Assembly: GCA_024711265.1 (NCBI GenBank)
Contig: JANJTG010000091.1
Coordinates: forward strand, 1 to 32,932
Reading direction: 5' to 3'
DNA length: 32,932 nt
Source of the DNA: Bdellovibrio sp.
GTDB taxonomy: Bacteria; Bdellovibrionota; Bdellovibrionia; Bdellovibrionales; Bdellovibrionaceae
Part shown: in pieces, positions 20,448 to 31,341 of the stretch
How positions within the stretch are numbered: position 1 is the first letter of the stretch
Layout: the number at the start of each line of letters is the position of its first letter
Notes under the pieces: model-generated
Seen by the model: only the letters and a program-made list of their open reading frames with translations
Databases searched by the model: none
What the model was told of the DNA's origin: nothing
Made by a program: the position numbers and the translations under genes

Positions 20448-20960
20448 ATGAAATACATCGGATGTTTGATGGCCTTTCTTTTGGCCCTGCCAGCGTCAGC
20501 CGCAATTTCAACACAAAAAAGCAAACCGACAGCGTCTAAAGTTCTTTCGGGTGAAGGCGTGAGTTTCGGAGGTCTTGCCGGGACTGGATTCACTTTGTTG
20601 GACGTGCGTCGCACGACCGATACGAAAAAAGGTCTGGAACGCATTGTGATTGATGTGGGTGATATGAGGGGAGCTCCTCTGCGCGGTTGGCCTGGATATT
20701 ATTATGCGGAACTCAAAAAAAATCCTTCTCGCTTAGTCATTGATTTTGCGCAAATGCCGAATGCCAATATAGATCAAACCCAGATCTCATCGCGTTTGAA
20801 AAGTTCTTTGGCGGTGACAAAAAGTACTTTGAGTTTGGATCCGGTGGATAGCTCTTTGAATTTAACCTTGGATCTTAAGAAGAACACCAAGGTCCGTGTT
20901 TATCAGGTGGCAGGTAAAAAGACGACCAGTAAAGTTGTCATCGACCTTGTCGCGGAGTAA
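20448..20960 (+). CDS. Secreted AMIN-domain-like protein
   Basis: Signal peptide MKYIGCLMAFLLALPASAA; RIVIDVGD...NPSRLVIDFAQMPNA...KVRVYQVAGKKTTSKVVIDL pattern. Confidence 0.65.
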   Translation: MKYIGCLMAFLLALPASAAISTQKSKPTASKVLSGEGVSFGGLAGTGFTLLDVRRTTDTKKGLERIVIDVGDMRGAPLRGWPGYYYAELKKNPSRLVIDFAQMPNANIDQTQISSRLKSSLAVTKSTLSLDPVDSSLNLTLDLKKNTKVRVYQVAGKKTTSKVVIDLVAE

Positions 20961-20965
20961 AAGCG

Positions 20966-21712
20966 ATGTTTCGCTTTTTATTTCCTCTTTTGATTCTGTT
21001 ATCGGTATCAGCTCAAGCTCGGGTGTTTAACATCAACAACGAAAATTTTGCGGCGTACTTCCTGGCGACAGGGGGAGGTTCGCAATTAGGAACTCACGCT
21101 GTGGCCGGAGAGGCCGGGGCTGGTGTTAATTATAATGGCGGTGTGAATTATAATTACACCGGAGAATTCGGCTTTCTTTACTCTAAACCTCGCGCGAGTT
21201 TGCGATTTGGCTTTGAGATTCTAAAGCCGTCGGTTCTGGAATCCACGGCTAACAACGGGACTTCGGATTTATATTCCGCAAAGAGTGATGTCTTGGGATA
21301 TGTTCCAAAACTTTCCTTTGAGTTGAATGTGCACGGCGATAATAGTTCCCGTTCGTTTATTTCTGCAACGGTGGGGACCGCCAGTGTGACTTTAAAAAAT
21401 GATTATGCTTTGACGGCGGCGGGACAGACAGCTTATCCAGGCGTTGTGGATCACAGCATTGAAGCCAAAGGTTCGAGCACATTGCTTTCGGCCTCTTTGG
21501 GGTATGAAGGAATTCTGACCGACACCACAACGGTGATAGTCGAGTTTGGCTATAGACAGCTAAAAATTGATAACTTGAAATATTCCAAAGACGTGACGAC
21601 ATTTTCTGGGGCAAAAACTAGCGGTGATGATCTTATGACTTCCTCGGGGGTCAAACGAGAGTTGGACTTTTCTGGCGGTTTTATTTCAATCGGATTTCGC
21701 TTTTACATGTAA
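20966..21712 (+). CDS. Outer-membrane beta-barrel protein
   Basis: Signal peptide ending AQA; barrel-like alternation; C-terminal SIGFRFYM. Confidence 0.7.
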   Translation: MFRFLFPLLILLSVSAQARVFNINNENFAAYFLATGGGSQLGTHAVAGEAGAGVNYNGGVNYNYTGEFGFLYSKPRASLRFGFEILKPSVLESTANNGTSDLYSAKSDVLGYVPKLSFELNVHGDNSSRSFISATVGTASVTLKNDYALTAAGQTAYPGVVDHSIEAKGSSTLLSASLGYEGILTDTTTVIVEFGYRQLKIDNLKYSKDVTTFSGAKTSGDDLMTSSGVKRELDFSGGFISIGFRFYM

Positions 21713-21715
21713 GGG

Positions 21716-22405
21716 ATGAACAACATGAGCGCTTTGTATCGTCTAAAGGGACTTGAGTATTCCTATTTGTGGAATAAGCAGCAGGTGCCGGTTCTTAAGG
21801 GCATTGACCTGGAACTGGAAAAGGGATGTTTTACCTGTATCGTGGGCCCGAGCGGGACGGGGAAGACGACGCTATTAAATCTTTTGGGGCTTATTGATAC
21901 ACCCTCCAATGGTCATATCGAATTCAGTGGCGAAGATGTCACTCATCTTCAAGAGAAAGAAAAAGAACAAGTACGTTTGCATAAAGTGGGATTTATATTT
22001 CAAGCCTTCTATCTGATCCCCACGCTGACGGTTTTAGAAAATACGTCTTACTTTCTGCCTTCTTTGGGGTACTCCCATGCGGCATCACAAAAAACCGCCA
22101 TGGAAACGTTGGATCTTTTGGGGTTGGCAGATCACGCCAAAAAAAGACCTTTAGAGCTTTCGGGAGGACAACGTCAGCGTGTAGCCATTGCTCGCGCCAT
22201 TGCTAAAAAGCCCATGGTTGTTTTGGCTGATGAACCTACGGCGAATCTGGATTCTGTGACAGCGGAGATGACGATCAATGCTTTCAAAGAGCTTCAGAAA
22301 ACTGAGAACACCAGTTTCATTTTTTCTACGCACGACTCCCATTTGGTGAGTTTTGCAAAATCGGTCTATCGCATGAAAGACGGGCAAATCGAGGGGAGGG
22401 CGTAG
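21716..22405 (+). CDS. ABC transporter ATP-binding protein (LolD/MacB-like)
   Basis: Walker A GPSGTGKTTLLNLLG, signature LSGGQRQRVAIARAIA, Walker B VVLADEPTANLD. Confidence 0.95.
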   Translation: MNNMSALYRLKGLEYSYLWNKQQVPVLKGIDLELEKGCFTCIVGPSGTGKTTLLNLLGLIDTPSNGHIEFSGEDVTHLQEKEKEQVRLHKVGFIFQAFYLIPTLTVLENTSYFLPSLGYSHAASQKTAMETLDLLGLADHAKKRPLELSGGQRQRVAIARAIAKKPMVVLADEPTANLDSVTAEMTINAFKELQKTENTSFIFSTHDSHLVSFAKSVYRMKDGQIEGRA

Positions 22406-22407
22406 TC

Positions 22408-23616
22408 ATGTTGGAACTTCTCAAAATCGCTTGGCGCAATCTATTTAGAAATCCTCGTCGCACTTGGGCCAGTCTTTGTACGGTGGCTTTGGGTTCTGCA
22501 GGTCTTTTGATTTATCAAGGTTTTAACTCGGGCGTGATGAATCAGTATCGTGAGAATGTGATTCATGGATATTATGGGTATGGCCAAGTTTTTCCCGAAA
22601 ACTATTTTGGCAAAGTTCATGAACAACCTTGGAAGTTGTGGTTTGAGGACGGTGAAAAGATCGAAGCGCAGCTTCGTTCTTCTCCCGCCGTGACTCAAGT
22701 ATTCCCGCGTGTTTCCTTTTATGCGTTCATTGTTAAAGGTGGCATTACACTGGGGGGGAAAGGCGAAGGGGTCATTCCTGAACGAGAAAATACGTTCTTC
22801 ACCGAGATGAACTTTATCGCCGGTCATGATCTTCAACATCCCGATCAAATCATCCTCGGAAAAGGTTTGGCAGAAAGTTTGGATGCTAAAGAGGGAGACA
22901 CCGTCACCTTGCTGACTCAGACCGTGAATGGGCAGTTGAACGGAGCGGATTTGACCGTGGCGGGGATCTTCTTTACAGGTAAAAAGGTTATTGATGATTC
23001 GTTTTATCGTGTGGACTTAAAGCAGGCGCAGCAGCTTCTTGATACTCGTCGTATTGAGATGTTTTCACTGGCGACTCAAGGAGTGGATGCTTGGCCTCAG
23101 GTTGAAAAAGATATTCGGAAAGCCAATCCTCAGTTGGAAGCCGTGCCCTTTGAAATTTTGGATAAAAACTATTACCAAAATTCAGTGGATTTCTTAAATG
23201 CGCAGTTTTCTTTCATTCGTTCGATCATTCTGGTCATTGTCGCTATGGGGATTTTTAATGTGATTTCGGTGGGACTTTTGGAAAGAGCGGGAGAGATGGG
23301 GGCCTTACGTGCCAACGGGGAAAAGCGCAGCCGTCTTTTTAAAATACTTCTACTAGAAAATAGCCTTTTGGGAATTCTCGGAGGCTTTGTGGGAATTTGT
23401 TTGGCGGTGTTGGTTGATAAGACCTTATTAGTGAAGGGGATTCCGATGCCCCCGGCACCGGGAATCACTCGTCAGTTCTTTGTGTTCTTGGATATCATGC
23501 CCAGTCACTACGTTCAGGCGTTGTTGTTGCCCATGATCGCTACTGTTGTAGCCAGTTTGTGGCCGACCATTAAACTTTTGAAAAAATCCATCCCAGAACT
23601 TCTGCGTTCAACATAA
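22408..23616 (+). CDS. ABC transporter permease, FtsX/LolE/MacB-like
   Basis: N-terminal IAWRNLFRNPRRTW, C-terminal FtsX-like TM region with LRANGEKRSRLFKILLLENSLLGILGG. Confidence 0.92.
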   Translation: MLELLKIAWRNLFRNPRRTWASLCTVALGSAGLLIYQGFNSGVMNQYRENVIHGYYGYGQVFPENYFGKVHEQPWKLWFEDGEKIEAQLRSSPAVTQVFPRVSFYAFIVKGGITLGGKGEGVIPERENTFFTEMNFIAGHDLQHPDQIILGKGLAESLDAKEGDTVTLLTQTVNGQLNGADLTVAGIFFTGKKVIDDSFYRVDLKQAQQLLDTRRIEMFSLATQGVDAWPQVEKDIRKANPQLEAVPFEILDKNYYQNSVDFLNAQFSFIRSIILVIVAMGIFNVISVGLLERAGEMGALRANGEKRSRLFKILLLENSLLGILGGFVGICLAVLVDKTLLVKGIPMPPAPGITRQFFVFLDIMPSHYVQALLLPMIATVVASLWPTIKLLKKSIPELLRST

Positions 23617-23797
23617 TTTAGAAATGTGAGAGACCTCGTCTTCGAGGTCTCGGCAATTTGTCCACTTCTTAGACACGATGGTAAAATTTGCAGTTTATGC
23701 GCCTTTCTAGAGCGTCAATTCCAATTCAAAGTACTTCACGCCCCTAAAAAAAACGGTATAAGACTTGCTCTCTGGATTTCTTGGAGTCAAAAAATTT

Positions 23798-24796
23798 ATG
23801 AGAGTGTCCGTTCTGGTTAATTCTAAAGCCGGTTCCGTGAATGCGGAGCTGATTGAGGCTAAGGTGCGCGAAGCTTTGTTTCGCTGCGACCTGCGCTTCT
23901 GCCGTCCACAGACGTTGACGGAGATGTGCGACTTCCTCAGTGAGGAACGAGCGCAGAAGACGGACTATGTTATTATCTGTGGCGGCGATGGCACGATCAA
24001 CGTGGCCTTGCAATGTCTGATGAAATGTCAGGAGCATCTGCCCATTCCTCCGATCGTGGTTGTTCGTTCAGGAACAGCTAATGATTTAGCCCATGAAATC
24101 GGAATTTCAAATCGCATCGATCACGCCGTTCGCAACATCTTCGAAGGTGTTGTGAAGAACATTGACGTGATTGAGATCAGTTCAGGAGAGAAAAAAACCT
24201 ACATGCTGACCAATGGAGGCTTGGGAATGCCTGCGGTGGCGGCTGAATTGGCGAATAAATTTAGAAGTCATTTGCAGACCTTGGCAAATTCTCCGAAGTC
24301 GGCGGCGGCCTATAAGTATCTGGCGCAAAAAAGCTATTATGCTGTTAAGAAAATGGGACCCACGGTTTATTCGATGATGACCGCGGAGGCGATTCGCACG
24401 TGGAATCCCGAGGGTTGGGAGCTTGAAATTGAGATTCCTGGCAAAGTGAATATCGAAACTAGTTCCCCGATTGTTTTGATTAATAATCAGCAAAGTATCG
24501 GGGCCAGTTTCTTGCCAGCCCCTTACACCTCAAATACAGATGGCACCGTCAATCTGTTGTTGTCGGAAACGAAGAACATTCCGGAACACACCCGAGCGGC
24601 CTTGCACATTCGTCGTGGTAGTATTGATAAATCTTCCGCTTTCAAATCGTTTGAGCTCAAAGAGTTCAGACTAAAGAGCCAGAATCCCCGTCGCGCTTTG
24701 ACTTTTTTTGGGGATGGCGAGATCCTTCTCAAAGATGTTCAGGAGCTGTCAGTTCGCTGTATACACCGCGGACTTCCTGTTATGGTCAGACAATAG
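23798..24796 (+). CDS. Diacylglycerol kinase catalytic-domain (YegS/LCB5) family lipid kinase
   Basis: VNSKAGSVN, VIICGGDGTINVALQCL, VVRSGTANDLAHEIGI, FLPAPYTSNTDG. Confidence 0.9.
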   Translation: MRVSVLVNSKAGSVNAELIEAKVREALFRCDLRFCRPQTLTEMCDFLSEERAQKTDYVIICGGDGTINVALQCLMKCQEHLPIPPIVVVRSGTANDLAHEIGISNRIDHAVRNIFEGVVKNIDVIEISSGEKKTYMLTNGGLGMPAVAAELANKFRSHLQTLANSPKSAAAYKYLAQKSYYAVKKMGPTVYSMMTAEAIRTWNPEGWELEIEIPGKVNIETSSPIVLINNQQSIGASFLPAPYTSNTDGTVNLLLSETKNIPEHTRAALHIRRGSIDKSSAFKSFELKEFRLKSQNPRRALTFFGDGEILLKDVQELSVRCIHRGLPVMVRQ

Positions 24797-24816
24797 GTGC
24801 AATCTGGAGGTCTTCC

Positions 24817-25836
24817 TTGACCAAACCCCGAATCCTCGTCACAGGGGGAACTGGTTTTCTTGGCAAAAGAGTCATTCCTCTGCTTCGTGAAAAATTCGAA
24901 GTGGATGTGCTTTCCCGTTCGGGTAAGACGGAAGTCCAGGGAGACCTGACTGAGTGGAATGCCGGACTGGACCTGGAATCTTTGAAGAATAAAAACTATT
25001 CTCTCTTCCTTCATATGGCCGGTCTTTATGACCTGACCGCCTCTAAAGTGGATTGTTATCAACATAATATTTCGACGATGGGAATTGCCTTGAAGGTGGC
25101 CGATGCCTTGAAGATTCCTTTTTTCATTAACACCAGCACGGTGGCGGCGGGGATTAATTCTAGCCTGGGGTCGGTAAAACCTTATGATCTAAATTTTTCC
25201 AAATCTTTTCCTGATGCTTATTCCGAGTCGAAAGCTTTAGGAGAGCAGCTCTTACAAAATTGGGCGGCACGGTCTATTCAGGGGCGAGTGAATTTAAGAT
25301 TGGGCGTGCTGGTCGGGGACTCTCAAAAAGGAACCATCGAGCGCATTGATGGGCCTTACCATTCGGCCGAAGCTTTTAATAAAATCCGCCCCATGATTGA
25401 GTCATTCCCGACTTCGTTGCCGTTGCCGGGGAATGCGCAAACCAAACTTCCCTTGGTGCCGGTGGACAAAGCCGCCCAAGCGATCGTAAGGTTTTGTGAG
25501 TGGACGCTGTCTCACAAACCGCAGGGTTATCAAAGTTATCATGTGACGCCCACATACGGATTGGGTGTGAAAGAGCTGTATGTTTCGGCTTTGAAGTATC
25601 AGGCGATTCCTCATCGAGGAATCGTTTTGTTCGATCAGATTTCAGAGTCTGTGATTTTAAAGATTTCAAAGTTTTTGGCGAAATTTCCCGAAGAAGAACT
25701 GCATTATCTGATGAACTTCCCAATTTACGACACGACGGCGACACGCGAGGTGTTGGGAGAAAACTGGTGCCCTGAGTTTAAAGAATACGAACAAGTTTTT
25801 TGGAGCGGCTATGAAGAATTCGTATCGCATCGCTGA
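24817..25836 (+). CDS. NAD-dependent epimerase/dehydratase (extended SDR)
   Basis: RILVTGGTGFLGKRVIPLL, YSESKALGEQLL (YxxxK); TTG start with GGAGG SD. Confidence 0.88.
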   Translation: MTKPRILVTGGTGFLGKRVIPLLREKFEVDVLSRSGKTEVQGDLTEWNAGLDLESLKNKNYSLFLHMAGLYDLTASKVDCYQHNISTMGIALKVADALKIPFFINTSTVAAGINSSLGSVKPYDLNFSKSFPDAYSESKALGEQLLQNWAARSIQGRVNLRLGVLVGDSQKGTIERIDGPYHSAEAFNKIRPMIESFPTSLPLPGNAQTKLPLVPVDKAAQAIVRFCEWTLSHKPQGYQSYHVTPTYGLGVKELYVSALKYQAIPHRGIVLFDQISESVILKISKFLAKFPEEELHYLMNFPIYDTTATREVLGENWCPEFKEYEQVFWSGYEEFVSHR

Positions 25837-27940
25837 GATCAGCTTCGGTCGCCCGCATTGGGATACCGCCTACGAATTTGAGTTCGAAGGAAAACAGTTT
25901 GAAGTTCAAAGATTCAGCGCCAATTTTTCCGTCGAGACAGTTCGTCGTTTGATCGAGAGTCTTCGCAATCAAGTCGATGCTTTTGCTTTGACCAGTTTGC
26001 CTCCGGTCATTAAGTTGGATCAAAAAAGTTACGTCCATCGTCAGTACTTGGAAATCATGGGTATTCCGTCACCAGTGCCGCTGTGTGATGGGACGGGGCT
26101 GCGTGAGATCGCAAATATCAATTCATTGGTGAAACATATCGAGGCAGGAAGTATTCAACCTGATCGCGGCGTGTTTTTTCCTTCGGCGGTCTTTTCGACA
26201 GAGTTGGAAGAGTATATTCGAGATCGTTATCGTAAATCGGTCTACATTGGCGACGCGTATTCGCTCTTAGGTGTTCCGTGGTTGATTCAACCTTTTCCTG
26301 GTCTGATGACATTGTCAAAGCTTGTTTTGAATGTCGCTAACTTTAAAGATTTACGAAAGAACACGCCTTTGGCGGAAACTAAGCTACAAAAGATGAGTCG
26401 TTCTTCGTTAGCCGCGCAGGTTGAAAATATCCAATATGTTTTCTGCGATCTGCCCTTCTTACTTCTTTTTGATACCGCAACGGAGTTTGTTCGCGGGAAG
26501 GACTTGGTGATTTGGTCTTCGCATCCTTTGATGGAGGCGGAAGCTAAGAAGTTTTCCCCGCGCAGTATTATCAATTTATTCCCGGAAAACTACCGCATCC
26601 ATCCTTATATGAACTATTCTGTTTTGGATGCGACCTTGCGTTTGTCTCATGGGCGAACGGCGCCATTGACGATTGAAGAGTGGGAGCAGATTCTGACCGA
26701 AGACACGGAGATTCGTCAGGTGGCCCGCAAATATGTCATGACTCGAAATGTTTCGACACAGGCGAAAATATCTTCTGGCATGAATACGGTGAAAAATAAG
26801 ATCTTGGGTCAACCAGAGCCTGACTTTGCCTTTGTGATCCACGCATTGTCACACCAGGATTTTATGCGTTTACCGATTTTATCGGCGTTAAAACACATGC
26901 CCAAAGAGTGGAATGACCCCTTTGACCGAATGGCAGCGAAGGCTCCTCCTTTTGTGCATGGCCATATTAAGCATATTATCAGTTCAGAGACGGGTGAAGA
27001 GATTAACGGTATTCTTTATGCTTTGCCGGCCACTCCGAAAGTGCTTAAAGAGACTGATCCTGAGGTGATCTATCGAAAAATCGAAAGTCTTTGTTATGAT
27101 GCCGCCAATCGCGGTGCGAAGATGATTGGTTTGGGGGCGTACACCAAGATTGTGGGGGACCAGGGTATCACCATCAATCAAAACAGTCCTATCCCGGTGA
27201 CCACGGGAAACAGTTTGAGTGCGTCGGCCACCCTGTGGGCCCTGAACGATGTGGTTCGGAAGATGCACCTTTTGAATATGGATCCACAAAATGGGTTGGT
27301 CGATGGCATGGCAATGGTCATTGGGGCCACGGGTTCGATCGGGCAAGTCTCTGCCAAACTTTTAGCTTTGGTGTTTAAGAAGCTTTGTTTGGTGGCTCCG
27401 CGTATGAATCGTCTGCAAGAGTTGAAATATGAAATTCAAAAGATGTCGCCACACTGTGAAGTCATCGTGGCGACAGATGCGAATGAACTGGCGGGTGAAG
27501 CGGACGTACTGGTGACGGCAACCTCTGCTTTAGACCACAAGATCGTCGATGTGATGAAGTTAAAACCCGGAGCGGTTGTCTGTGATTGTTCAAGGCCTTT
27601 GGATTTTGATATTGAAGATGCGAAAAAGCGTCCTGATGTGTTGATTATTGAATCCGGCGAAGTGGTCCTGCCAGGACCAGTGGAGCTAAACTGTGATATC
27701 GGCCTTCCGGGCAACACGGTCTATGCGTGCTTGGCAGAGACCGCCTTATTGACCCTTGAAAAGAGATACGAAGCCTTTACCATGGGGCGAGATATTGAAT
27801 GGGACAAGGTGAAGCAGATTTATAAAATGGCCCGTCGCCACGGAGTTCAATTGGCGGCGATTCAGGGTCACACGGGGATTATTACGGACAAAGAGATTGA
27901 ACTCACAAGACAACTGGCATTATCAAAACGAAGGAAATAG
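25811..27940 (+). CDS. Two-domain protein: N-terminal about 337-aa uncharacterised domain plus C-terminal long-chain acyl-ACP reductase (AAR)-like domain
   Basis: C-terminal half: MIGLGAYTKIVGDQGITINQNSPIPVTTGNSLSASATLWAL, MVIGATGSIGQVSAKLLA, VVLPGPVELNCDIGLPGNTVYACLAETALLTLEKRYEAFTMGRDIEWDKVKQIYKMARRHG, resembling cyanobacterial AAR; start overlaps the previous gene by 26 nt. Confidence 0.8.
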   Translation: MKNSYRIAEISFGRPHWDTAYEFEFEGKQFEVQRFSANFSVETVRRLIESLRNQVDAFALTSLPPVIKLDQKSYVHRQYLEIMGIPSPVPLCDGTGLREIANINSLVKHIEAGSIQPDRGVFFPSAVFSTELEEYIRDRYRKSVYIGDAYSLLGVPWLIQPFPGLMTLSKLVLNVANFKDLRKNTPLAETKLQKMSRSSLAAQVENIQYVFCDLPFLLLFDTATEFVRGKDLVIWSSHPLMEAEAKKFSPRSIINLFPENYRIHPYMNYSVLDATLRLSHGRTAPLTIEEWEQILTEDTEIRQVARKYVMTRNVSTQAKISSGMNTVKNKILGQPEPDFAFVIHALSHQDFMRLPILSALKHMPKEWNDPFDRMAAKAPPFVHGHIKHIISSETGEEINGILYALPATPKVLKETDPEVIYRKIESLCYDAANRGAKMIGLGAYTKIVGDQGITINQNSPIPVTTGNSLSASATLWALNDVVRKMHLLNMDPQNGLVDGMAMVIGATGSIGQVSAKLLALVFKKLCLVAPRMNRLQELKYEIQKMSPHCEVIVATDANELAGEADVLVTATSALDHKIVDVMKLKPGAVVCDCSRPLDFDIEDAKKRPDVLIIESGEVVLPGPVELNCDIGLPGNTVYACLAETALLTLEKRYEAFTMGRDIEWDKVKQIYKMARRHGVQLAAIQGHTGIITDKEIELTRQLALSKRRK

Positions 27941-27948
27941 GAGATGTC

Positions 27949-28647
27949 ATGAAGACACTTTTGGCTGTAGGCGTTTTAGCTTTTTCGTTCCACGCGGGGG
28001 CGGCAGAAGATCCGGCAGAGTGGGTGAAAAAGGCCGACAATATTCGGAATCCTGCTGAATCCTATGAAATGAAAATCAAAGTCGAAACCTCAGAAAACAC
28101 ATCGGTCTTTCAAGTCTACCTAAAGGGTCAGGACAAAACTTTGATTGTGACAAAAGAGCCTGCACGAGACAAAGGGCGCAACATGTTGATGTTGGATCGT
28201 GATTTTCACGCCTATGTTCCCAATTTAAAGCGTTCGATGCGGTTGTCCTTGGCACAAAAACTTTCCGGCCAGGTCGCAAACGGGGACATCTCTCGCACAC
28301 GTTGGTATGGCGACTACTCTGTCATGAAAGAGGCTGAAAGCAATGGCGAGATCCAACTTCTTCTTAAAGGAAATAAAGACAATCTGACTTATGCCTGGAT
28401 TCGCCTGTGGCTGAAAAAGGGAAGCTTTGAGCCTTTACGTGCTGAGTACTTGGGGCTTAACGGAAAGACCATACTAAAAAAGGCCAGCTTCGAAGACTAT
28501 AAAAGCATTGCCGGGGCCGTTCGGCCGACCACTTTAAAAATCGAAGATACCAACAAACAGATCAGTCATATTCGTATTTTAGAGATGGGTAAAAAAGACT
28601 TTTCTGACTCCTTCTTCTCAGTTCGCAATATGGAAAGCATGAAGTAG
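27949..28647 (+). CDS. LolA-like outer-membrane lipoprotein-sorting family protein (PF17131/TP0789-type)
   Basis: Signal peptide; KGRNMLMLDRDFHAYVPNLKRSMRLSLAQKLSGQ...ISRTRWYGDYS pattern. Confidence 0.72.
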   Translation: MKTLLAVGVLAFSFHAGAAEDPAEWVKKADNIRNPAESYEMKIKVETSENTSVFQVYLKGQDKTLIVTKEPARDKGRNMLMLDRDFHAYVPNLKRSMRLSLAQKLSGQVANGDISRTRWYGDYSVMKEAESNGEIQLLLKGNKDNLTYAWIRLWLKKGSFEPLRAEYLGLNGKTILKKASFEDYKSIAGAVRPTTLKIEDTNKQISHIRILEMGKKDFSDSFFSVRNMESMK

Positions 28648-28648
28648 A

Positions 28649-29713
28649 GTGAGGACCGGCTTTTTCTTATTCTTTTTGATGATTTCAATGGGAGCGAGAG
28701 CCGACCTCACGGGCGCGGCTCGCTATGAATATATTCGTGGCAAAGAAGAAGAGTTGGCCCACCGACTTATTATCAAATCGAAAATGAATTCCTCTTTGGG
28801 GCCTTTTGGAGTTTTTATTGAGGGCTTTGGCGAATTTGAAACGAATGAGGATCAAGCCTTCATCCGTCGATCCCCTTCTCGAGGATATTTGCAAGAGGCT
28901 TACTTCGAGTTTAAAAAAGACTCATTTTATGTGCGCGTGGGACGACAGGCTTTACGTTGGAGCGAAAGTTGGAGTTTGCCCTCGTTGGATGTGTGGACCG
29001 GGCGGCGCTGGAATCGTCTTTTCTTTGATCCTCTGGCGGATCAACTGACTCATTCGACGGGGATTTCATTTTCTTACACCACGGAAAACACCTCCCTGGA
29101 TCTTGTCGGTATCGGAGAACTTGCGGAAACCTTTTATCCCATTCCGATTCCCGAGGTGGAGAACGAAAAGAATTCCAGCTTTGGAGGGCGCTTTAAGTGG
29201 AATGTCGGGGGATTTGGACTTTCTGCGATGAGTGCCCAGGTTCTTCGCAAGAACCACTATGGAGTGAGTGGAAACTACGCTTTTGACTCGGCGGTTCCCA
29301 AGATAGAAATTGGCTATGTCGATGATACGACACCAGGACTGACGGTGAAACGTGATCAGATGTTTTCAACGCTGGGATGTGATTTGTTTTTGGGAAATTG
29401 GGTGGTGCTTCCCCAGGTCACATACTTCCAAGTGAATTCGGTTCTGGGAACTGAGTATCAGACTTCGTTTTACGCCTCGGCGCAATGGAACCCCGATCGT
29501 CATGACGTGCAGGTTCTTTTTTTTCAAAACCCTCAAAGCAAAGAGGCGTTTATGAGCGCAAGTTATGGATACAATGTGACGGATTATTTTACGGCCTCGG
29601 GATTTGTGCAAAACTATGCGGGACAAGAGGGCCTTTATAAATTTTATGAAGAAATCACGGGGGGACTCGTGGTGGGCTTGCGATTGGAACTGACTGGAAA
29701 TTTAGCCTTTTAA
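28649..29713 (+). CDS. Outer-membrane beta-barrel protein
   Basis: GTG start, signal peptide, FYVRVGRQALRWSESWSLPSLDVWTGRRWNRLFFDPLADQ, C-terminal LRLELTGNLAF. Confidence 0.75.
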   Translation: MRTGFFLFFLMISMGARADLTGAARYEYIRGKEEELAHRLIIKSKMNSSLGPFGVFIEGFGEFETNEDQAFIRRSPSRGYLQEAYFEFKKDSFYVRVGRQALRWSESWSLPSLDVWTGRRWNRLFFDPLADQLTHSTGISFSYTTENTSLDLVGIGELAETFYPIPIPEVENEKNSSFGGRFKWNVGGFGLSAMSAQVLRKNHYGVSGNYAFDSAVPKIEIGYVDDTTPGLTVKRDQMFSTLGCDLFLGNWVVLPQVTYFQVNSVLGTEYQTSFYASAQWNPDRHDVQVLFFQNPQSKEAFMSASYGYNVTDYFTASGFVQNYAGQEGLYKFYEEITGGLVVGLRLELTGNLAF

Positions 29714-29722
29714 GGAGAGCTT

Positions 29723-30820
29723 GTGGCAAAAGAATACTTTTCGGACTTAAATTATACTTTGGCGAATGAAGACACTCGTATTGAGTTTGAATTGCTACCC
29801 GAAGGTGTGGAGCGAGTTTTCAGCATTGCTGGGTCGGGCGCGCGTTGCCTGCCTTTGATTGCCAAGAATCCGAAGTATTTAGACGTGATCGATATGTCGG
29901 TGAGTCAGCTTTATCTGTGTGAACTTCGTTTGCAGGCGATGAAGACCCTGTCTTATGAAGAGTATTTGTTTTTGATGGGATATCGCGGGGCTTTGCAAAG
30001 CGGCGGTGATTGCGGTGATGATCGAGAGACGATCTTCAAAAAGCTAAAATTATCACCGGAGGCGACCCGCTATTGGATGGACCGAGTGCAGGGCTGGAGG
30101 CCCAAAGGGTTTATCCTCTTGGGTCGATGGGAATCCCACTTCCAAAAGTTGGGTTATCTATTTAGAGATGTCTTAAAATGTGATTTCAGCAAATTCTTTG
30201 CGGCTCAAACCTTGGATGAACAGGTGACGATTTACGAAGAAGAGTGGCCCAAAGTTCGTTGGAATAGCTTTATCCGAATAGCCGCCAGCGAGTATGTTTT
30301 TAATAAATTTTTATATAAAGGACATTTCAGCGGAAAGGCAGAACACAAGACGGAACAACGGGCTCCGTCGCAATTTATTATGGAAGAGTTCGACCGCATC
30401 TTTAGAACTCAACTGGTGCGAAAAAACTATTTTATGCAGATTCTTTTCTTAGGGCGTATTGCTTATGAGGAGGGGCTTCCTTTGGAGGCTCATCAGCACA
30501 TCGTAGAAGCGGTCAAAAAATCAAAAACTGAAATTCGTTATCTGCATGGCAATCTCCTGGAACACTTACCTCGCTATCCATATAACTTTGTCTCGTTGTC
30601 CGACACCATTTCTTATCTTGATCAACAAGACGCCAATCAAATCTTGCAAAAGCTTTCCGCTGAAACTCCTTCGGGAAGTCAAATTGTGATTCGGTCCTTT
30701 ATGAGAGCTCCAACTGAGATTGATTTGCGAAACTGGCAAGAGCTGGGTGATCTGAATCAGTGGGCGCAAAAGAAGGATGGAACGGGCGTGTATCAGTTCC
30801 ATATTTTCAAGAAGATTTGA
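29723..30820 (+). CDS. DUF3419 / BtaA-like SAM:diacylglycerol 3-amino-3-carboxypropyl transferase family protein
   Basis: VFSIAGSGARCLPLIAKNPKYLDVIDMSVSQLYLCELRLQAMKTLSYEEYLFLMGY, NFVSLSDTISYL. Confidence 0.75.
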   Translation: MAKEYFSDLNYTLANEDTRIEFELLPEGVERVFSIAGSGARCLPLIAKNPKYLDVIDMSVSQLYLCELRLQAMKTLSYEEYLFLMGYRGALQSGGDCGDDRETIFKKLKLSPEATRYWMDRVQGWRPKGFILLGRWESHFQKLGYLFRDVLKCDFSKFFAAQTLDEQVTIYEEEWPKVRWNSFIRIAASEYVFNKFLYKGHFSGKAEHKTEQRAPSQFIMEEFDRIFRTQLVRKNYFMQILFLGRIAYEEGLPLEAHQHIVEAVKKSKTEIRYLHGNLLEHLPRYPYNFVSLSDTISYLDQQDANQILQKLSAETPSGSQIVIRSFMRAPTEIDLRNWQELGDLNQWAQKKDGTGVYQFHIFKKI

Positions 30821-30912: not shown

Positions 30913-31341
30913 ATGTACCGGTCAAAGGGCTGCTTGTCCTTATTTTTATCGCAACGAGATCTCGTTGTGGATCCGATAGCTATTAAGCTATTAAATGACA
31001 AACAACTTGTGCGCCTTTGGAACTCTCGCGGGGATCTCATTTATTACAATGAACTTCTGCGTAAGGCGACCTCGTATTCTCCTTTGGATTTATGCTATTA
31101 CGATCTGAAGACCTTGTGGTCCTTCGAAGATGATGGCTACGAACGCTTTAAGTCCATTGTTTTGAAGGCTATGATGGGTCAAGAGCTTGGAAAAAACAGC
31201 GACTATATCGTTCGAGAAATTCGAGGAGAGAGGCTTTTGGGTCATCATAAAATCGATATCGCGACTCCCGTCTGGAATGATGGTAAGATCGAAGGAATTT
31301 TGATTGCCGGAACTTGTGATGTGTCAAAAAAAACCGGGTGA
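30913..31341 (+). CDS. Small stand-alone PAS-domain-like protein
   Basis: QLVRLWNSRGDLIYYNELLRKATSYSPLDL...YIVREIRGERLLGHHKIDIATPVWNDGKIEGILIAGTCDVS. Confidence 0.65.
   Translation: MYRSKGCLSLFLSQRDLVVDPIAIKLLNDKQLVRLWNSRGDLIYYNELLRKATSYSPLDLCYYDLKTLWSFEDDGYERFKSIVLKAMMGQELGKNSDYIVREIRGERLLGHHKIDIATPVWNDGKIEGILIAGTCDVSKKTG

Follow-up and report, generated by a model that had tools for sequence, protein, structure and literature searches.

A rearranging, co-inherited gene set in Bdellovibrionota as a candidate pathway for an uncharacterized polar lipid

Relation of the locus to described systems

Several described systems draw on gene families that also occur in a locus we analyzed in Bdellovibrio sp., on a 32,932-nucleotide stretch of DNA (GenBank assembly GCA_024711265.1, contig JANJTG010000091.1, positions 1 to 32,932) that we call the window. 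Cyanobacterial acyl-ACP reductase (AAR) belongs to the AAR/aldehyde-deformylating oxygenase (ADO) alkane pathway, and PigE and TamH are thioester reductase-aminotransferases of prodigiosin and tambjamine biosynthesis. BtaA is an S-adenosylmethionine:diacylglycerol aminocarboxypropyl transferase, and LolCDE and LolA form the Lol lipoprotein-sorting system. In the two-domain reductase MA-ACR, the aldehyde reductase is the N-terminal half (PMC8492656). The locus, at window positions 21716-30820, consists of known families in a combination for which we found no description in the open-access literature, subscription papers being outside the search. On balance, and with limited confidence, we favor the reading that it is the larger part of a split biosynthesis and export locus for an uncharacterized polar lipid or lipid-like metabolite. 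Its predicted core is a lipid kinase, an aldehyde-reductase-like short-chain dehydrogenase/reductase (SDR), an acyl-thioester reductase, and a DUF3419 (BtaA-like) protein. The eight genes, numbered by their place among ten plus-strand genes of the window, include an ATP-binding cassette (ABC) pair and are as follows:

21716-22405, plus strand: gene 3, LolD-like ABC ATPase (PF00005, 3e-33; TIGR02211 LolD, 2e-61)
22408-23616, plus strand: gene 4, FtsX/MacB_PCD permease, a LolE-like paralogue (FtsX, 4e-17; MacB_PCD, 5e-11)
23798-24796, plus strand: gene 5, YegS/DAGK-type lipid kinase (DAGK_cat, PF00781, 8e-20; YegS_C, 3e-7)
24817-25836, plus strand: gene 6, SDR of the NAD-epimerase type (NAD_binding_4, 3e-16; PRK07201, 8e-31)
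25811-27940, plus strand: gene 7, acyl-thioester reductase preceded by an additional N-terminal domain (PigE model, 2e-53; AAR model, 1e-17)
27949-28647, plus strand: gene 8, periplasmic carrier of the LolA superfamily (PF17131, LolA_like, 9e-30)
28649-29713, plus strand: gene 9, predicted outer-membrane beta-barrel (no match of its own; relatives match weakly)
29723-30820, plus strand: gene 10, DUF3419 (BtaA-like), putative 3-amino-3-carboxypropyl transferase (PF11899)

Family scans confirmed the assignments that a preliminary description had made from the sequence alone for the LolD-like ATPase, LolE/MacB-like permease, YegS-type kinase, SDR, reductase, LolA-like protein, and DUF3419 protein. 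The closest sequence family to the reductase domain of gene 7 (residues ~337-709) is PigE/TamH, and a PigC/RedH-like partner is encoded in the second block of genes described below. Unlike PigE and TamH, gene 7 ends after its reductase domain, with no C-terminal class III aminotransferase domain found in family scans, and it scores 182 bits against an equivalog cut-off of 850. Among solved structures, the domain matched PigE (PDB 4ppm, 2.5e-27) and cyanobacterial AAR (6jzq, 1e-7). An AlphaFold2 model of gene 7 with 35 family members as input (predicted local distance difference test score, 81) retrieved AAR structures in Foldseek (template modeling [TM] score by target, 0.73-0.76; 6jzq, 0.76), as well as the carmabin TAD domain. 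The catalytic Cys294 of cyanobacterial AAR aligns with the predicted nucleophile of gene 7, Cys640, which is invariant in 35 family sequences from several classes. PigE and AAR are both proposed to use this cysteine as their nucleophile, and experiments support the reduction of a thioester to an aldehyde by PigE (PMC8341465). Gene 7 differs from AAR in its extra N-terminal domain and its ~22% identity, and scores 64 bits against the AAR equivalog TIGR04058 (cut-off, 450). Alkane synthesis was rejected because family scans found no ADO among the cluster genes.

The N-terminal extension of gene 7 (residues 1-335) gave a confident fold when modeled alone (predicted TM score, 0.82). We rejected its assignment to a known enzyme because neither sequence nor structure comparisons gave a convincing relative. 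In the "AAR-like fusion" of the preliminary description, the N-terminal half is therefore without a convincing solved relative. This half is possibly a degenerate duplicate of the AAR domain. Foldseek aligned it to that domain with TM scores of 0.39-0.42 and probabilities up to 0.98-0.99, and the AAR profile match was the best and longest of 11 families; its score of 27.9 compares with 21.0 for the highest of 60 column shuffles and with a nearly equal 26.9 for the reversed-profile control. In a plasmid collection, relatives of the reductase domain were mostly annotated as aminotransferase fusions, none covering 80% of gene 7. A genome scan with strict peptide patterns found relatives of gene 7 in Bdellovibrionota only; since these patterns missed even some members of the phylum, relatives elsewhere are possible.

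The other core proteins also retain the signatures of their families. GGDGT (the diacylglycerol kinase catalytic motif), GTAND, and FGDGE motifs are kept in 36 sequences of the gene 5 family, and the gene 6 family conserves GGTGFLG-type and Y-x3-K motifs. Gene 6 covers positions 3-351 of the 657 in the PRK07201 profile, its N-terminal half; we take PRK07201 and MA-ACR to be the same kind of protein. At the sequence level, gene 6 resembles the aldehyde-reductase part, at the N-terminus, of fatty acyl reductases with two domains, and the thioester-reducing half of the MA-ACR type would be replaced here by a separate AAR/PigE-type protein. Gene 10, present in one copy in the genome, is like BtaA in matching DUF3419 over its full length (PF11899, E = 1.9e-59, profile positions 3-385 of 385). 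It differs in being linked to genes for an acyl-thioester reductase, a UbiA-family protein, and a lipid kinase, and we disfavored the betaine-lipid BtaAB pathway because no BtaB N-methyltransferase was found among the window's cluster genes or among the block genes scanned in relatives.

The transport genes resemble LolCDE/LolA in having a LolD-like ATPase, a LolE-like permease, and a LolA-superfamily carrier. They differ in that a dedicated barrel follows the carrier and that both genes 3 and 4 fall below the relevant cut-offs (gene 3, 207 bits against 308 for TIGR02211, with Walker and signature motifs conserved; gene 4, 86 bits against 362 for the LolCE model TIGR02212). Separate, stronger LolCE-type permeases, one or two per genome at ~190-270 bits and also below cut-off, occur in all 24 Bdellovibrio genomes, including those that lack the locus, and we therefore rejected genes 3, 4, and 8 as the housekeeping Lol system. 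The cluster permease (~85 bits) is found only in the 16 locus-positive genomes of the 24. Gene 8 scores 104 bits against PF17131 (gathering score, 30), and its family profile matches PDB 3buu, a LolA-fold relative, at 1.8e-58. The two barrel-type proteins of the window have no Pfam match of their own; relatives of gene 9 match Porin_4, DUF1302, and Wzi weakly, and in other classes a second family (B387) occupies its position. In the lineage of the window, the transport genes are part of the locus, and the ABC ATPase, permease, LolA-like carrier, and barrel form a dedicated, non-housekeeping transport module. Two locus-negative Bdellovibrio genomes, G004 (C1, ~3.39 Mb; L180) and G019 (C1, ~0.78 Mb; L182), hold a separate ABC-LolA module, in which LolCE-like permease genes flank a LolA-like paralogue. 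By the features tested, the locus is predicted to be neither a betaine-lipid, an alkane, nor a Lol-lipoprotein system.

Co-inheritance and the second biosynthetic block

We surveyed 60 relatives first and afterward extended the survey to 369 genomes of the phylum, counting full-scale matches. The reductase was found in 109 of the 369 genomes and DUF3419 in 121, with both in 102, the reductase only in 7, and DUF3419 only in 19 (Fisher p = 9e-62, without correction for phylogeny); the genomes with only one of the two include several fragmented assemblies. In the sampled stretches, the lipid kinase, SDR, and reductase genes are contiguous, in the same order and on the same strand, wherever the contig allows, and the DUF3419, ABC-permease, and LolA-barrel genes shift position around them and switch strand. 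Genes 3-10 form an eight-gene locus that is kept across Bdellovibrionota, found together in rearranged orders, and clustered far above chance. Scattering of the genes among relatives, which the preliminary description had offered as a way to refute the cluster, was not what we observed: the core stays linked. Because gene order can be passively inherited, conserved linkage despite rearrangement is stronger evidence for a functional unit than order itself.

The locus is patchy, occurring in about a third of the phylum. Within the genus Bdellovibrio, 16 of 24 genomes carry all four of the reductase, DUF3419, the cluster permease, and a phosphoenolpyruvate (PEP)-synthase-like gene, and the remaining 8 carry none of them; the genes are therefore dispensable in the genus. 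The exact match of the PEP-synthase-like gene to the core-bearing genomes (16 of 24, with 0 of 8 others) has a chance probability of ~1 in 735,000, assuming independent genomes. Near-identical and related loci are found in Bdellovibrio records, including that of B. bacteriovorus strain kdesi.

The PEP-synthase-like gene belongs to a second block that adjoins the core in many relatives and encodes a formyltransferase, an alpha/beta hydrolase, a PRK09274/OleC-like acyl ligase, a UbiA-family transferase, and the PEP-synthase/PigC-like protein. In the window's own genome this block lies elsewhere, on contig C224 at ~13.7-20.4 kb (locus L141), so that the window holds the larger part of a split locus. 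Taken together, these genes are a rearranging, co-inherited set of about a dozen in many Bdellovibrionota. Residues kept in the second block include the formyltransferase N-x-H...D, the ligase P-loop, the mobile-domain His of the PEP-synthase-like protein, and the first Asp-rich motif of UbiA. The UbiA protein scores 39.2 bits against PF01040 (cut-off, 34.2), and its family has an invariant R-x2-DE-x-KD-x3-D pattern. Among solved structures, the UbiA proteins come closest to archaeal digeranylgeranylglyceryl phosphate synthase (E = 8e-6), an ether-lipid enzyme that forms an ether bond on a glycerophosphate lipid. Ahead of the block in the window's genome (L141:1919-5697) are a Ser/Thr kinase with a PEGA domain and a second acyl ligase.

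In an alternative version of the block, a GNAT gene and a shorter ligase replace the formyltransferase and hydrolase, often together with a cytochrome P450 gene. The two versions did not overlap among 24 stretches (13 with the formyltransferase and hydrolase set, 11 with the GNAT gene). Two Bdellovibrio genomes, G012 and G020, carry the GNAT version at the site where others hold the formyl version, with a divergent (~45% identical) PEP-synthase-like gene; proteins of the same sizes as those ahead of the block in the window's genome lie ahead of the swapped block. This exchange suggests that a shared lipid receives alternative N-caps from the block. In genome G036, a 610-residue UbiA-GNAT fusion directly adjoins DUF3419 (L060:9263-12129), which supports a functional core of UbiA, GNAT, and DUF3419; there was no reductase match in this genome.

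Boundaries of the locus and other settings of DUF3419

Open reading frame calls confirmed ten plus-strand genes with tight or overlapping junctions (5, 3, 2, 181, 20, -26, 8, 1, and 9 nt between genes 1 to 10, in order), including the gap of about 180 nt before 23798 noted in the preliminary description. The proposal that all ten form one cluster stands for genes 3-10, which recur together, but not for the first two, and we rejected a ten-gene operon as a unit because genes 1 and 2 are independent of the locus and gene orders vary among relatives. The remaining features of this stretch are:

20448-20960, plus strand: gene 1, AMIN-like exported protein (weak AMIN matches), outside the lipid locus
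20966-21712, plus strand: gene 2, small outer-membrane-type protein (small barrel; no family match), outside the lipid locus
23617-23797, no strand: 181-nt gap between genes 4 and 5, where unrelated genes are inserted in other Bdellovibrio genomes

Gene 1 is present in all 24 Bdellovibrio genomes, including the 8 without the locus, and gene 2 adjoins it in all 24; in genomes G011 and G022 the two lie ~570 kb from the locus. Because genes 1 and 2 are conserved with or without the locus, we place its start at 21716. The gap is probably a transcription-unit boundary, since relatives carry insertions of unrelated genes there; the ABC pair (genes 3 and 4) is often on the opposite strand in relatives. 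Promoter and terminator scans around 23617-23797 gave matches at chance level, and Rfam and tRNA scans of the window gave none. Directly after the locus is a 142-residue PAS-like protein (30913-31341), followed by a lipoprotein-like open reading frame and a long, repetitive exported one that runs to the end of the window.

DUF3419 also occurs in other settings. For example, a Roseinatronobacter plasmid carries, consecutively, genes for UbiA, a PEP-synthase-like protein, DUF3419, a membrane protein of unassigned family, a GNAT-like protein, and an acyl ligase. A likeness of the 439-residue protein beside DUF3419 to dolichol/phytol kinases, seen by eye, had no Pfam support and was not used. On Rhizobiaceae plasmids (Rhizobium pMK-2, L160; Shinella pZ25, L175), DUF3419 lies within a different conserved set, with KAS III, an SDR, a metallo-beta-lactamase-fold hydrolase, an F390-synthetase-like protein (TIGR02304), and a GNAT-like protein (the last by eye), which is apparently another uncharacterized fatty-acid-derived pathway. 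From these contexts, DUF3419 seems to serve repeatedly in fatty-acid-derived pathways, and not in those of betaine lipids alone. Two further settings were observed. In G214, G213, and G212 (L162, L163, and L164), a PigE-like reductase, a PEP-synthase/PigC-like protein, and a very divergent DUF3419 are encoded within 10 kb, with a P450-like gene nearby. On a Deefgea piscis plasmid (NZ_CP054144.1; L159:14252-16481), genes for an iron-containing redox enzyme and an adenosylmethionine decarboxylase flank DUF3419.

Proposed pathway, alternative readings and implications

The best reading of the predicted enzymes is a product derived from a fatty aldehyde or alcohol, carrying an aminocarboxypropyl group and an N-formyl or N-acyl cap. 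What we computed here are the gene identities, the intactness of the catalytic motifs, the catalytic cysteine, conserved linkage, co-inheritance, and the alternative capping modules; we infer the substrates, the order of steps, the product itself, and the way in which transport runs. Acyl ligases of the second block would activate fatty acids, and gene 7 would reduce the acyl thioester to a fatty aldehyde via an acyl-Cys640 intermediate and NAD(P)H. Gene 6 may then reduce the aldehyde to the alcohol, and gene 5 phosphorylate the lipid. The UbiA-family enzyme, together with the PEP-synthase/PigC-like phosphotransferase, might couple this lipid to a second building block, and gene 10 would move the 3-amino-3-carboxypropyl group of S-adenosylmethionine onto the joined product, yielding a free amine to be capped by the formyltransferase in the window's genome or by a GNAT acyltransferase in other lineages. 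The ABC pair could extract the product from the inner membrane for passage across the periplasm on the LolA-like carrier, with the barrel admitting it to the outer membrane.

The proposal of lipid-type biosynthesis in the preliminary description is well supported by intact kinase, SDR, and reductase motifs, the AAR cysteine, the full-length DUF3419 match, linkage, and co-inheritance. Delivery to the outer membrane, which it had also proposed, is plausible in this lineage given the dedicated module, but is not universal: some relatives lack this LolA, and in f22 genomes a double FtsX permease adjoins the lipid kinase and DUF3419. Its interpretation is thus partly supported, with two genes removed from one end of the locus and the second block added at the other.

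Several observations weigh against a single lipid pathway with export. Eight of 14 biosynthesis-positive genomes tested (G338, G098, G102, G104, G106, G353, G183, and G316) are without a comparable LolA, and only distant LolA-like proteins occur in G035 and G060. Because at least eight enzyme-bearing genomes lack this LolA, we regard outer-membrane delivery as a lineage-specific addition rather than a defining feature. Clusters of the f22 type encode DUF3419, UbiA, and the PEP-synthase-like protein with a P450, and neither a reductase nor an SDR is linked to them. The aldehyde and DUF3419 branches may therefore be separable, which suggests two sub-pathways that meet. To our knowledge, substrates in the DUF3419 family are known only for BtaA. 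In addition, a secreted natural product, rather than a membrane lipid, would also be compatible with the PigC-like and P450 partners.

One alternative, to which we give perhaps a quarter of our belief, is that the locus makes a natural product that is secreted or placed at the surface (such as a lipophilic antibiotic, a signal, or a pigment) by prodigiosin/tambjamine-like chemistry, exported through the ABC-LolA-barrel module. Its modular swapping and patchy presence would suit such a product, as would the kinship of the gene 7 reductase to PigE and the P450 partners of GNAT-type clusters. The PEP-synthase-like partner matches RedH and PigC at ~1e-110, but it falls far below the cut-offs of those models and above that of a separate model, PRK06241; gene 7 lacks the aminotransferase domain, and the lipid kinase, UbiA, and LolA/barrel partners indicate a membrane lipid. 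We consider it improbable that gene 10 makes diacylglyceryl-homoserine, the precursor of the betaine lipid diacylglyceryl-trimethylhomoserine, with the other genes supplying or moving it. BtaA, the characterized DUF3419 member, makes the diacylglyceryl-homoserine ether, and gene 10 matches this family over its full length, but BtaB is missing from the genes scanned, and an acyl-thioester reductase, an SDR, UbiA, and formyl or acyl capping would be superfluous. There is similarly little to recommend two unrelated neighbors, in which a Lol-like transporter of lipoproteins or lipids would sit next to a fatty-alcohol/aldehyde pathway and the two would share no product. The transporter is absent from several biosynthesis-positive genomes, as such neighbors might be; in Bdellovibrio, however, the cluster permease occurs only in the 16 locus-positive genomes, and the ABC-permease and LolA-barrel genes repeatedly rejoin the enzymes after rearrangement in several classes.

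A more specific proposal, tentative and rather doubtful as a whole, is that Bdellovibrionota make an undescribed lipid class: a (phospho)lipid derived from a long-chain aldehyde or alcohol, with a homoserine-type aminocarboxypropyl group, swappable N-formyl or N-acyl caps, and, in some lineages, ABC-LolA-barrel delivery to the outer membrane. Deletion and lipidomics should be feasible, given that the locus occurs in cultured Bdellovibrio bacteriovorus and is dispensable in the genus. If the proposal holds, an unrecognized lipid pathway with swappable capping modules would exist in a large phylum to which a cultured model predator belongs, and part of that phylum would have its own lipid route from the inner to the outer membrane. 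Functions would follow for many DUF3419 and PEP-synthase-like genes now annotated by name only, and LolDE/LolA-like modules would gain a hypothesis of non-lipoprotein cargo.

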